From assembly GCA_903933115.1 (NCBI GenBank), contig CAIZIT010000093.1, positions 1-64,000 on the forward strand: 64,000 nt of DNA. The letters run 5' to 3'. The position numbers were made by a program, and so were the translations under genes. The stretch comes from an uncultured Burkholderiales bacterium (GTDB lineage: Bacteria > Pseudomonadota > Gammaproteobacteria > Burkholderiales > Burkholderiaceae_C). The notes under the pieces are model-generated. The model was not told the origin of the DNA. It made no database searches and saw nothing but the letters and a program-made list of their open reading frames with translations. This document shows, piece by piece, positions 60,116 through 64,000 of this stretch (position 1 is its first letter; each line of letters starts with the position of its first letter).

Positions 60116-60736
60116 TTATGAACGAGAGAACTCAGGTCTGTCGTTTCTTTCGGGTTTGAGTTTGACGCTCTCTCCTGATGCCTTTTGCGCTCTCCAGGCC
60201 TCTTTTCTGAGGGTCCACTGCTGGAGTCTTTCATGAGCGGTCAAACTCTCTTTGTGCATGGTCTCTTTGCTGCCTGTTTGAACCGTCAATTCGAGCCGAA
60301 TACCATTCGGGTCAAAGAAATAGATGCTTTTGAACACATGGTGATCGGTCACGCCCAAGACCTCAATGCCGTGGGCTTGCAAACGGATCTTGGCATTCTC
60401 AAGCTCCGCCTCGGTGTCTACTCGAAAGGCGATGTGGTTGACCCAAATCGGGGTGTTGGGGGAGGGAAGAGCGGCTTCATCATCCCCCAAATCGAAAAAT
60501 GCAATGAAGGAGCCGTCCATGAGTCGGAAGAAAAAGTGCGTGTAGGGGCAATATTCTCCTGTGCTTGGCACGTGGTCACTTTGGATAATGTGGTAAAGCG
60601 GCAAGCCCAAAATGTCTTCGTAAAAATGACGCGTCTCTTCTGCATCCTTGGCGCGGTAAGCATAATGGTGCAGTTGCTGGATGGGGGCAGCTTGGGGCAG
60701 GGGGCTCAAGGTGGCCCTTTGAAGGGGTGTGGACAT
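60116..60736 (-). CDS. VOC-family (glyoxalase-like) metalloprotein
   Basis: The 206-residue protein has a glyoxalase/dioxygenase fold: QLHHYAYRAKDAEETRHFYE, ending the first half, and WVNHIAFRVDTEAELENA with FDPNGIRLELTV in the second. Histidines at HHY and NHIAF and the glutamate in RLELT are likely metal ligands. Substrate unknown. I start at ATG 60736; the open frame to 60823 is unlike the family. Confidence 0.85.
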   Translation of the reverse strand: MSTPLQRATLSPLPQAAPIQQLHHYAYRAKDAEETRHFYEDILGLPLYHIIQSDHVPSTGEYCPYTHFFFRLMDGSFIAFFDLGDDEAALPSPNTPIWVNHIAFRVDTEAELENAKIRLQAHGIEVLGVTDHHVFKSIYFFDPNGIRLELTVQTGSKETMHKESLTAHERLQQWTLRKEAWRAQKASGESVKLKPERNDRPEFSRS

Positions 60737-60932
60737 GGCGGTTTTCAATAAAATAATGACTTTGATGCTGAGTGTAAGCGCCAGTCCTTTGACTTGGAAG
60801 AAAAATGCCTCAAAATCCATCAAAACCGATTAAAACCTGGTGTTAATGCTTAGAAAACAGATTGCTTTTTGTTTCAACCTTCACGGAATGAGTTAATCTA
60901 GAAGGGGTCAACGGACGGCAAGAAGAGATGCG

Positions 60933-61211: not shown

Positions 61212-61634
61212 ATGTCCTCACTCAAGGGCTCCAAGACCGAGAACAATTTGAAGGAGGCCTTCTCTCAAGAGTCCCAGGCCAACCGTCGTTATTTGTACTT
61301 TGCCAACAAGGCTGATATCGAAGGCTACCAAGATGTGGCTGCTCTCTTTCGTTCAACCGCAGGTGGCGAGACGGGGCACGCCCACGGTCACTTGGAGTGG
61401 CTCGAGCAATGTGCAGATCCGGTGACCGGTTTGCCCATCGGCACCACACGTGAGAACTTGGCGGCAGCTGTGGCTGGTGAAACCCATGAATATGCTGACA
61501 TGTACCCAGGGATGGCCAAAACAGCAAGGGACGAGGGCTTTCATGAGATTGCGGATTGGTTTGAAACCTTGGCCAAGGCAGAGCGCTCACATGCCAAGCG
61601 TTACACCAAAGCCTTGTCGGAGTTGGAAGATTGA
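61212..61634 (+). CDS. Rubrerythrin-like di-iron protein without rubredoxin domain
   Basis: The 140-residue four-helix protein has the di-iron ligands E20, E53-x2-H56, E90, E93 and E124-x2-H127 (ESQANRRY, GETGHAHGH, GETHEY, AERSHAKR). Rubrerythrins reduce hydrogen peroxide, and this form lacks the C-terminal rubredoxin domain, so it needs a separate electron donor. The next gene overlaps by 4 bases. Confidence 0.93.
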   Translation: MSSLKGSKTENNLKEAFSQESQANRRYLYFANKADIEGYQDVAALFRSTAGGETGHAHGHLEWLEQCADPVTGLPIGTTRENLAAAVAGETHEYADMYPGMAKTARDEGFHEIADWFETLAKAERSHAKRYTKALSELED

Positions 61635-62305
61635 GCACTGAGCCCTATCCGGAGATGTCCCTCTTGCCGGTGATGGGACACATCGAGGTGGACAACTTGA
61701 TGACGCTAGAAGCTTACGCCAAATTCAGGCAACGCCATCACCGTCATTTGATCGCTGAGCGACAAAGGAGAGGCGTCAATTTGGGTCAAAACATGCGCTT
61801 ACAGTTTGAGAGCGAGCAGACCCTTCGCTACCAAATCCAAGAAATGCTCAGGATAGAGCGACTCTTTGAAGAGGCCGACATTCGAGCAGAAATTGAGGCC
61901 TTCGCGCCCTTGATGCCCCAAGGGCGCAATTGGTCGGCGACCATGATGCTGCAGTTTGCTGAGCCCGAGGAAAGACGCTTGGCTTTAGAGCGTTTGGTGG
62001 GTGTAGAGGCTTGCGTTTACCTCCAAATTCCACACCATGATCGCGTTTATGCCTTGAGCCAAGATGAACGTCCCACTGAAAATGCACATCCATCAGATGC
62101 ACAAAAAACATCGGCTGTACATTTTGTGACCTTTGAATTCACCCAGAAGATGATCCAGGCCCTCTTGTCAGGCGCTCTTGTCCAATTGGGGTGCGATCAT
62201 GCGCATTACAGCCAGGCGTGTGAGTTGTCGGATGAGATTTTGAGCGTTTTGAAGCAAGATTTGAAGCAAGATTTGAAGCCCCAGGTCGGCGAGTCTTTCA
62301 CCTAA
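61631..62305 (+). CDS. DUF3501 family protein
   Basis: The 224-residue protein matches DUF3501: LMTLEAYAKFR, LRYQIQEMLRIERLFE, LMPQGRNWSATMMLQF and KTSAVHFVTFEFTQKMI. Function unknown. In other proteobacteria, as I recall, it accompanies rubrerythrin and an iron-sulfur heterodisulfide-reductase-like protein; that third gene is absent here. The TTG start overlaps the rubrerythrin stop. The tail LKQDLKQDLK arises from a 12-bp repeat. Confidence 0.85.
   Translation: MSTEPYPEMSLLPVMGHIEVDNLMTLEAYAKFRQRHHRHLIAERQRRGVNLGQNMRLQFESEQTLRYQIQEMLRIERLFEEADIRAEIEAFAPLMPQGRNWSATMMLQFAEPEERRLALERLVGVEACVYLQIPHHDRVYALSQDERPTENAHPSDAQKTSAVHFVTFEFTQKMIQALLSGALVQLGCDHAHYSQACELSDEILSVLKQDLKQDLKPQVGESFT
62249..62280 (+). 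repeat. 12-bp tandem repeat in the DUF3501 3' end
   Basis: TTGAAGCAAGAT is repeated 2.6 times in frame, encoding LKQD-LKQD-LKP near the C-terminus. Confidence 0.9.
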
Positions 62306-62445
62306 GGTTCATTTGGGTTGAAGCCCTTTTTGAGCAATTCACATTAAAATGCTAGCTTTGATCCCAGTCACATCATGACCATCCATCTTGCCATGATGCA
62401 GGGTTGTTGTTGGTGGCGTGCGTGAACTCTTGACGATACTCCAAT

Positions 62446-63234
62446 ATGCTTTTTTTAATCTCGCCTGCCAAAACTCTGGATTTTGAGTCCCCCCTCTCCA
62501 AGCCTGCCCTGCGCTTTGAGCCTGAGGTGCCGGCTTTCATGAATGAGACGCGGTCTTTGGTGAAGCATTTGAAGAAGATGACGCCTGAAGAACTCTCGGC
62601 CTTGATGTCCATCAGCGAGCCCTTGGCGCAACTCAATGCCAAAAGATTCAAGGCCTTCAGCCCGGAGTTTCACGCGCAAAATGCAAGGCCAGCTTTGATG
62701 GCTTTCAATGGCGATGTGTACGAGGGGCTTGATGCACCGTCCCTGGATGTGAAGGGCTTGAGGTTTGCGCAGTCGCATGTGGTGATCTTGAGTGGTCTTT
62801 ACGGCAGCTTAAAACCCATGGATTGGCTCCAAGCCTATCGCTTGGAGATGGGTACCGCTTTGGTTCAAGGGGGCTTTAAAAACCTCTATCAGTTTTGGGG
62901 CGATAAGATAGCTCGGCATTTGAACACTTTGCAGGCCGAGGACAAGTCCCCTACGGTCATCAACTTGGCCTCTCAGGAGTATTTCAAGGCCGTGGACCGC
63001 AAGACCTTGAGAGCCCAGGTGATTGAATGCGTTTTTGAAGATGAGAAAGATCAGCGGTTCAAAGTGATCAGCTTCTTTGCCAAACGGGCTCGAGGCAAAA
63101 TGCTGCGCTTTGCGATCGATCGGCAAGTCAAGACCCCTGAGGGGCTTAAAGCCTTTGATTCTGAGGGGTATCAATTTGCCCCCGAAGCCTCGAGCGCCGA
63201 TCGTTTCGTTTTCAGAAGGCAACAGGTTCGTTGA
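62446..63234 (+). CDS. yaaA: Peroxide stress protein YaaA
   Basis: The 262-residue protein matches YaaA: MLFLISPAKTLDFESPL, LNAKRFKAF, NGDVYEGLDA, LSGLYGSLKPMDWLQAYRLEMG (motif LSGLYGSLKPMD) and INLASQEYFKAV. In E. coli YaaA lowers free iron and limits Fenton damage under hydrogen peroxide. Lying 140 bases after rubrerythrin-DUF3501, it suggests a shared oxidative-stress role. No OxyR or Fur site could be assigned. Confidence 0.94.
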   Translation: MLFLISPAKTLDFESPLSKPALRFEPEVPAFMNETRSLVKHLKKMTPEELSALMSISEPLAQLNAKRFKAFSPEFHAQNARPALMAFNGDVYEGLDAPSLDVKGLRFAQSHVVILSGLYGSLKPMDWLQAYRLEMGTALVQGGFKNLYQFWGDKIARHLNTLQAEDKSPTVINLASQEYFKAVDRKTLRAQVIECVFEDEKDQRFKVISFFAKRARGKMLRFAIDRQVKTPEGLKAFDSEGYQFAPEASSADRFVFRRQQVR

Positions 63235-63405: not shown

Positions 63406-64000
63406 ATGAAAGTACATGCCCACGGCATCGAGATTGAATTTGCCGAATATGGCCACCCAGAGCATGAGCCCTTGCTCTTGATCATGGGCTTGGGGTTGCA
63501 GATGATTTCTTGGCCACCACTGTTCATCGAGTTGCTTTTGAAGGCGAATTACAGAGTCATTGTGATGGACAACCGAGACTGTGGACTGTCCAGTGAGTTA
63601 AAGGATGCCGAAACCCCCAATTTGCTTTGGATGGGTTTGAAAGACAAGTTGGGTTTGAGCACCCAAGTGCCCTATACCTTGACGGACATGGCCAAAGACA
63701 GCTTGGCTGTTTTGGATGCCTTGAAGATCAAAAGAGCCCATGTGTTGGGCCTGAGCATGGGCGGCATGATTGCGCAACGCTTGGCCATCCACTTCCCCGA
63801 ACGCGTTCAAAGCTTGATCAGCATCATGAGCTCGAGTGGCGCCTCTGGTCTGCCCAAACCCGATGCCATGCTGCTGCAAAACTTGTACATGCCCAAGATG
63901 GGCGGGCAAGGTTTTGAGTCTTGGGTGAACATGGCCCTCGAGTCGTTGCAGTTGATCACGAGTCCCGCTTTTCAAGACGATGTCTCCGAAGTCCGCGCCA
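63406..64000 (+). CDS. Alpha/beta hydrolase, 3' end outside the window
   Basis: The first 198 codons are visible, beginning MKVHAHGIEIEFAEYGH. It has LLIMGLGLQMISWP, DNRDCGLSS and the normal serine elbow GLSMGG at about residues 119-124. The frame is open at the right edge, so the acid and histidine are not seen. It resembles a large family of uncharacterised esterases or lactonases. It differs from the gene at 13363, which has Cys in the elbow. Confidence 0.88.
   Translation, partial: MKVHAHGIEIEFAEYGHPEHEPLLLIMGLGLQMISWPPLFIELLLKANYRVIVMDNRDCGLSSELKDAETPNLLWMGLKDKLGLSTQVPYTLTDMAKDSLAVLDALKIKRAHVLGLSMGGMIAQRLAIHFPERVQSLISIMSSSGASGLPKPDAMLLQNLYMPKMGGQGFESWVNMALESLQLITSPAFQDDVSEVRA

Follow-up and report, generated by a model that had tools for sequence, protein, structure and literature searches.

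Why does a rubrerythrin gene stand directly beside a DUF3501 gene without the iron-sulfur (Fe-S) protein that usually accompanies the pair, and what happens to the two remaining proteins once that partner is gone? The question is raised by a 64,000-nucleotide stretch of DNA (the window; positions 1 to 64,000 of contig CAIZIT010000093.1, assembly GCA_903933115.1) from an uncultured Burkholderiales bacterium. The genus of the source and of the compared relatives is apparently Limnohabitans, a name inferred for them. Rubrerythrin (RBR), DUF3501, and the Fe-S protein RFO were described by Cardenas et al. (2016) as a co-occurring module, with all three in 185 genomes and RBR and DUF3501 alone in 25 (PMC5114695). 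There is no Fe-S gene between the RBR and DUF3501 genes in the window. Comparison of related sequences indicates that this state is best read as derived by loss, at a locus where relatives carry RFO. We consider it somewhat probable (roughly 0.55) that the locus encodes an RFO-less aerobic rubrerythrin system, that RFO docks by the RBR diiron site where it is present, and that DUF3501 mainly serves RBR and RFO but has a residual RFO-independent role.

The sequence-only reading had stated that a heterodisulfide-reductase-like Fe-S gene often lies with the pair and is absent here, and had proposed searching the genome for it. The usual presence of this gene (RFO, COG0247/CCG) agrees with PMC5114695 and with the relatives, and its absence here was upheld when the proposed search was run. 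A profile built from 10 RFO sequences gave no match in the whole genome at E ≤ 1e-5, and tblastn of RFO on the window locus (L001) detected no remnant at the junction between rbr and the DUF3501 gene. Two proteins exceeded the cut-off of the CCG model, GlcF (630 bits with the GlcF model) and a 1,299-residue GlcD-like/CCG frame, and two further matches fell below it. An RFO encoded elsewhere in the genome was rejected on these grounds, and RFO seems to be absent rather than moved. The genome has the two-gene form, with RBR and DUF3501 adjacent and no RFO found in the genome, and not the three-gene system, in which RFO would be linked or elsewhere. It is very improbable that the missing RFO is an artefact of assembly or search, or that the gene was simply overlooked at another location. 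The 2.82-Mb assembly is a draft in 119 contigs, but it is 99.3% complete, rbr and the DUF3501 gene are contiguous inside a 122-kb contig, and the same direct adjacency recurs in 14 other genomes of the genus and in G295, a member of another genus. Furthermore, a residue signature described below goes along with the missing RFO in most such genomes.

RFO-less loci are frequent within the genus and rare outside it. The genus set comprised 84 genomes, most of them drafts and many incomplete, in which RFO was called at E ≤ 1e-50. DUF3501 was found in 53 genomes and RFO in 34, counting the fragment at a contig edge in G079. Among the 19 genomes with DUF3501 and without RFO, 15 have rbr directly beside the DUF3501 gene and 4 are cut by contig ends (G023, G058, G065, and G077). 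With those four left out, the two-gene locus is present in 15 of 49 decidable genomes and RFO in 34 of 49; within the 15, rbr of G020 and G053 and the DUF3501 gene of G067 leave the contig on the far side. Of 250 genomes drawn from the family, at least 3 of them from the genus, 108 contained DUF3501 and 107 had RFO (E ≤ 1e-60). DUF3501 lacked RFO in four: this genome, G295, G330 (at the edge of a contig), and G137 (where the match is partial and divergent). This genome and G295 are the clear two-gene loci of that draw, G295 being the sole clear case outside the genus. In a draw of 398 genomes from the phylum, 25 had DUF3501, and RFO was in the locus in 24 of the 25 (23 plus L056), this genome being the exception. 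RFO was likewise present in 75 of the best 80 named loci, which overlap partly with the genus genomes; four of the remaining five correspond to G040, G033, G295, and G049, and one is a contig edge. Two other arrangements were observed. In G059 (completeness, 83%), rbr and yaaA are immediate neighbors (L105, 2040-3253), and DUF3501 and RFO were not found in the genome. A second copy of the locus in G025 (L138) has a second rbr plus an RFO that the end of the contig cuts off after residue 84.

Loss is favored over gain because nearly all DUF3501 loci in the family and phylum draws carry RFO. The RFO-less label changes 9 times on a ValS tree made with a quick method (7 changes forced by starred branches), 5 times on a tree of RBR DNA (3 forced), and 4 times on a DUF3501 tree (3 forced). 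A wider tree with 98 RBR rows, from which L294 was dropped (branch 5.75), has the RFO-less rows in five groups under a loss-only reading. If the changes are read as losses, these trees imply at least three losses of RFO, and probably five or more. Fragmentary or paralogous DUF3501 rows were dropped from the trees and from the conservation and invariant-column counts given below. One locus (L137, in G081) is an RFO-bearing trio with a distant RBR (79%) amid an otherwise RFO-less ValS group; it is possibly a re-acquisition, and transfer in places is likely.

A different origin of the two-gene locus would be joint acquisition of RBR and DUF3501 from a source in which RFO was never present, such as one with the archaeal type of two-gene form. 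PMC5114695 reports RBR and DUF3501 without RFO in Thermoproteales, and states that RFO is missing in some Deltaproteobacteria. We regard such an acquisition as highly unlikely here, as the neighbors of the locus are largely those found in RFO-bearing relatives, and the window RBR is 73 to 93% identical to the other RBRs of this type in the genus. In addition, the RFO-less rows of the genus sit among its RFO-bearing rows on RBR and DUF3501 trees built with bacterial sequences other than those of deltaproteobacteria.

RFO loss is accompanied by a change in selection on DUF3501. The ratio of nonsynonymous to synonymous substitution rates (dN/dS) was estimated by the NG86 method over genome pairs, using each genome once, with the separateness of tree paths checked in part; these values are rough where dS exceeds 1, and two saturated RFO-bearing pairs were excluded from the DUF3501 test. 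DUF3501 dN/dS ranged from 0.085 to 0.252 (median, 0.168) in six RFO-less pairs versus 0.019 to 0.073 (median, 0.032) in 14 RFO-bearing pairs (p = 5e-5). Purifying selection on DUF3501 is about five-fold weaker without RFO. The controls showed no shift, neither YaaA (4 RFO-less and 8 RFO-bearing pairs, p = 1) nor ValS (6 and 15 pairs, p = 0.68), and expressing DUF3501 dN relative to that of ValS gave the same result (p = 0.0008). The proposal in the sequence-only reading that DUF3501 acts in electron supply finds support of an indirect kind in this weaker constraint where RFO is gone.

The DUF3501 of the window has diverged furthest among the RFO-less rows. Its identity to 60 relatives has a median of 49% and a maximum of 52%, whereas the overall median of that set is 77%, and it is 55% identical to its nearest RFO-less sister. 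Its terminal branch, at 1.03, is the longest among the RFO-less rows, followed by G036 (0.67) and G053 (0.60); the longest overall (1.29) belongs to G234, an RFO-bearing genome with a split DUF3501. Pairwise dN assigns about 0.28 to the window branch, 0.19 to G036, and 0.11 to G040, and RBR dN is similar across the corresponding branches (about 0.03, 0.02, and 0.03). Of 45 DUF3501 columns that are invariant in 100 RFO-bearing rows, this genome breaks 9 and other RFO-less rows break 0 to 5; RFO-bearing rows left out singly break 0.21 such columns on average and no more than 4. Rows G058, G065, G189a, G285, and G330, whose RFO state is unknown or partly known, were left out of this count and were treated as RFO-bearing when conservation in distant rows was assessed. 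The window protein also has a 5-residue insert after residue 143 (numbered from ATG 61655) and a C-terminal short repeat, KQDLKQDLK, plus tail (62252-62305) that is absent from all 21 of the other aligned members.

Such divergence might mean that DUF3501 is functionless without RFO and is becoming a pseudogene, the two-gene operon being a leftover. The long RFO-less branches, the nine broken columns, and G059, with rbr beside yaaA and no DUF3501 found, all point that way. However, dN/dS is well below 1 in all six RFO-less pairs, and reading frames are intact in the old groups G049/G051/G063 and G000/G036/G040/G060. Of the 84 columns with at least 97% conservation in named RFO-bearing rows, 64 were not altered in all members of any RFO-less group, although single members may differ. 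The predicted model of the window protein (predicted local distance difference test score, 86) matches the solved structure 3fjv with TM scores of 0.82 (query) and 0.91 (target), and DUF3501 is thus predicted to keep its fold. Because those 64 columns hold and the fold is predicted to be intact, DUF3501 does not look neutral, and decay appears unlikely, although it is the least improbable of the alternatives considered here. Foldseek gave no entry beyond 3fjv at E ≤ 0.001 that might provide a clue to function.

Several unusual DUF3501 genes were encountered. In L082 (G234, a single-contig genome of another genus), the DUF3501 gene next to rbr and RFO is broken into two frames. L078 and L079 are divergent extra copies (162 to 178 bits) whose genomes carry RFO and a normal DUF3501 as well; neither RBR nor RFO was found beside these copies. 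In L080 (3457-6492), a single open frame encodes both a DUF3501 domain and a TonB-dependent receptor with plug and barrel, and a gene for a CbiX-domain protein comes next; the frame may represent either a genuine fusion or read-through. Orphan DUF3501 paralogues were dropped as a clue to function, as their neighbors differ among the loci inspected.

RBR also changed after RFO loss. The diiron ligand positions E20, E53, H56, E90, E93, E124, and H127 are identical in all full-length RBRs aligned. They align with those of sulerythrin (1j30), which is a solved relative along with 9onm and 4di0; Glu53 and Glu126 are the bridging ligands in sulerythrin work (PMC12851003). Across 84 RFO-bearing rows, 91 of 140 RBR columns never vary. 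Of 14 RFO-less rows, twelve break 6 to 10 of these, and the remaining two, the pair G078/G083, break 1 to 2. The deeper RFO-less groups have depths of 0.40 to 0.59 substitutions per site; seven RFO-bearing clades with depths of 0.3 to 0.5, some of them nested, break 1.6 columns on average and at most 4. Branches without RFO carry 148 of 443 amino acid changes on 24% of the tree length (p = 2.5e-6), and RBR dN relative to ValS shifts with RFO loss more weakly than that of DUF3501 (p = 0.009). The second RBR copy of G025 was left out of the tree and the invariant-column set, and G059 was left out of the RBR tests.

Seven RBR sites (19, 21, 51, 71, 91, 119, and 129), each with at least four changes, change solely on RFO-less branches. 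Simulations yielded a mean of 0.10 such sites and a maximum of 2. All seven agree in 33 of 33 RFO-bearing genus rows, which include the second copy of G025 and the RBR of G234 from another genus, and in 60 of 60 rows of a second RFO-bearing set. Sulerythrin agrees with the RFO-bearing RBRs at six of the seven (G19, S21, E51, A71, T91, and T119) and differs at 129. Sites 19, 21, 51, 91, and 129 are one or two residues from metal ligands, site 119 is five residues before E124, and site 71 has no metal ligand near it in sequence. The RBR of G059, which played no part in defining the sites, departs from the RFO-bearing state at six of them and breaks 12 of the columns invariant in RFO-bearing rows; it groups with one RFO-less clade on the RBR tree and is therefore not a cleanly independent case. 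In the recent-looking pair G078/G083, site 71 alone has changed. A word search of the sulerythrin paper PMC9589262 yielded no mention of Glu51 or Gly19.

A working model can be proposed from these patterns. RBR is predicted to be a diiron peroxidase that reduces H2O2. RFO would dock beside its diiron site, on a patch around G19, E51, A71, T91, and T119, and feed electrons into it, and DUF3501 would mainly serve the RBR-RFO pair as an adaptor or assembly factor. Once RFO is gone, the constraints on the RFO-facing parts of RBR and DUF3501 would relax, and another reductant, either rubredoxin or an NADPH-dependent ferredoxin/flavin reductase, would feed RBR; we infer both the RBR-RFO interface and the replacement donor. 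Selection would be maintained on the metal site of RBR and on the core of DUF3501 because DUF3501, as proposed, keeps an RFO-independent job with RBR. More tentatively, and with somewhat less confidence than the model as a whole, the RFO losses may be regarded as a set of natural mutants that delineates the face of RBR at which RFO binds and electrons enter (G19, S21, E51, A71, T91, and T119), with DUF3501 a mostly RFO-dependent adaptor that has a smaller RFO-independent role.

There is precedent for a donor of this kind. Peroxidase activity that depends on NADPH and FNR has been described for ferriperoxin, an RBR with one domain, and the disruptant of ferriperoxin failed to grow aerobically (PMC3317640). 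Two rubredoxins are encoded in this genome, and PF00175, a broad domain family to which FNR belongs, has seven matches. One of the rubredoxin genes follows a second rubrerythrin-like gene of 160 codons whose product is about 40% identical to RBR (G000:C6:9770-10451; L322:2256-2952, minus strand). A second rubrerythrin is present in 33 of the 84 genus genomes, and a rubredoxin gene adjoins it in all seven loci that were fetched. It is more common in RFO-less genomes (12 of 15) than in RFO-bearing ones (10 of 34; Fisher p = 0.0016).

A number of observations weigh against the proposed model. The association with the second rubrerythrin is not significant in independent pairs, which average 2.4 for, 0.2 against, and 4.4 with no difference, and the adjoining rubredoxin was set aside as the replacement donor. 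RBR dN/dS does not differ significantly with RFO state (6 RFO-less and 14 RFO-bearing pairs, p = 0.26). Single RBR sites fail correction (best p = 1.4e-3, 44 tests), so the claim rests on the number of sites, and five other sites change solely on RFO-bearing branches. The putative docking patch is deduced from the position of its residues near ligands in the sequence. In DUF3501, the often-changed P178 and H180 show, by eye, no conservation in distant RFO-bearing proteins, and about 9% of 23 distant RFO-bearing rows lack E97; these residues vary beside RFO and therefore need not touch it. A simple DUF3501-RFO interface formed by "HRK" and "PAH" was set aside for the lack of C-terminal conservation, as judged by eye, in distant RFO-bearing DUF3501s, and the occurrence of H32 in 43% of distant RFO-bearing rows also counts against it. 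Finally, the number of losses varies with the tree and is clouded by transfer of the trio, as in G081, and counts of changes alone cannot separate loss from gain.

YaaA limits free iron. The sequence-only reading had placed it in one stress group with RBR and DUF3501 and had named iron handling as a possible role of DUF3501. On this view, the three genes might form a single operon for peroxide and iron stress, with DUF3501 managing the iron that is loaded into RBR. The adjacency stands: counting 45 genus genomes and G295, 37 of 46 loci have YaaA within 700 bp 3' of DUF3501, and in 17 of them the distance is 2 to 11 bp. DUF3501 H174 is fully conserved, in a G-C-D-H motif in this family, as might suit a protein that handles iron. 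A common function fares less well. Among 69 named loci that extend 1.5 kb or more downstream, YaaA is next in 27, and it was seen in 2 of 23 phylum loci (1.5-kb flanks). C172 occurs in 30% of 23 distant DUF3501s, and the gap here is 140 bp. Moreover, the shift in selection tracks RFO; YaaA shows no such shift, and no test that was run linked it to RFO loss. The single stress operon is accordingly improbable, more so than the decay of DUF3501. YaaA is a frequent neighbor and not a shown partner, and within the proposed model it would limit free iron separately.

The genes of the locus are listed in Table 1. The assignment of rubrerythrin, DUF3501, and YaaA genes to the plus strand was borne out by matches to PF02915, PF12007, and PF03883. 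The ferritin-like domain of RBR spans residues 11 to 134, and no rubredoxin match was found, as expected for the aerobic type. DUF3501 matches PF12007 over model positions 2 to 187 of 187 with 203 bits (cut-off, 25) and is therefore full-length, as is YaaA (351.7 bits against a cut-off of 278 for NF002542), in which nothing unusual was seen. The 4-base overlap of rbr and the DUF3501 gene that had been described needs a start at TTG 61631. It is not supported because alignment of homologues, which start about 4 residues ahead of a G-H-I motif, fits starts at ATG 61655, GTG 61670, or ATG 61673, with a gap of 20 to 38 bases after rbr. On this alignment, the true start is placed within or just 3' of 61635..61672. 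The gap is about 40 bases in the sister genomes G040 and G060 and about 70 in G036. The block of VOC gene (minus strand), rbr, RFO where present, DUF3501 gene, yaaA, and hydrolase gene is kept whole or in part across many genus genomes, both RFO-bearing and RFO-less. A promoter pattern scan gave one promoter-like match, on the minus strand, no more than in shuffled sequence; a scan for terminator-like patterns gave 8 matches versus a shuffled mean of 3.3.

Table 1. Features of the RFO-less rubrerythrin locus, in window positions
Feature	Coordinates	Strand	Remarks
VOC/glyoxalase-family gene	60116..60823	-	PF00903 1.1e-16; divergent, upstream of rbr; same place in many genus genomes
Aerobic-type rubrerythrin (RBR), 140 aa	61212..61634	+	PF02915 2e-28; rubredoxin domain absent
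RBR codon 19	61266..61268	+	Gln in window, Gly in all compared RFO-bearing RBRs; beside ligand E20
RBR codon 51	61362..61364	+	Gly in window, Glu in all compared RFO-bearing RBRs; two before ligand E53
RBR codon 71	61422..61424	+	Val in window, Ala in all compared RFO-bearing RBRs
Junction where the RFO gene is missing	61635..61672	+	RFO-bearing relatives have RFO here (~1350 bp)
DUF3501, maximal open reading frame from TTG 61631	61631..62305	+	PF12007 4e-60
YaaA (peroxide stress protein)	62446..63234	+	PF03883 8e-86; 140 bp 3' of DUF3501
Alpha/beta hydrolase gene	63406..64000, leaves window	+	PF00561 9e-21; neighbor common to many genus genomes

The locus resembles the RBR-RFO-DUF3501 system of PMC5114695 in having the same type of RBR without a rubredoxin domain, the same DUF3501 partner, and adjacent genes; it differs in that RFO is missing, DUF3501 has strongly diverged, and patch residues of RBR have changed. 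It shares its two-gene composition with the RBR-DUF3501 form of the 25 organisms, including Thermoproteales, in that paper, which presents the archaeal two-gene form as ancestral. The form in the window is, in contrast, probably derived by repeated loss in an RFO-carrying genus, a comparison for which the archaeal form is known here from the paper. A natural fusion of DUF3501 with RFO is reported from Nitrosomonas. The system also occurs in eukaryotes, with mitochondrial targeting predicted in Andalucia (PMC7050145). Like sulerythrin and ferriperoxin, the window RBR is a single-domain diiron protein, with ligand residues that align with those of sulerythrin, but sulerythrin keeps G19, E51, A71, T91, and T119, and the first three of these have changed in the window. 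The predicted DUF3501 fold is that of the Burkholderia DUF3501 in PDB 3fjv, with 43% identity; the insert and C-terminal tail set the window protein apart from it.

The two-gene form was thus already known. Repeated RFO loss and the residue signature that goes with it were not found described in the openly licensed literature searched, and no report was found there of a selection-based link between DUF3501 and RFO. Such a link is what the selection data provide. The changes in both RBR and DUF3501 after loss hint at where RFO used to act, and the repeated losses among close relatives supply named residues and genomes for direct tests.

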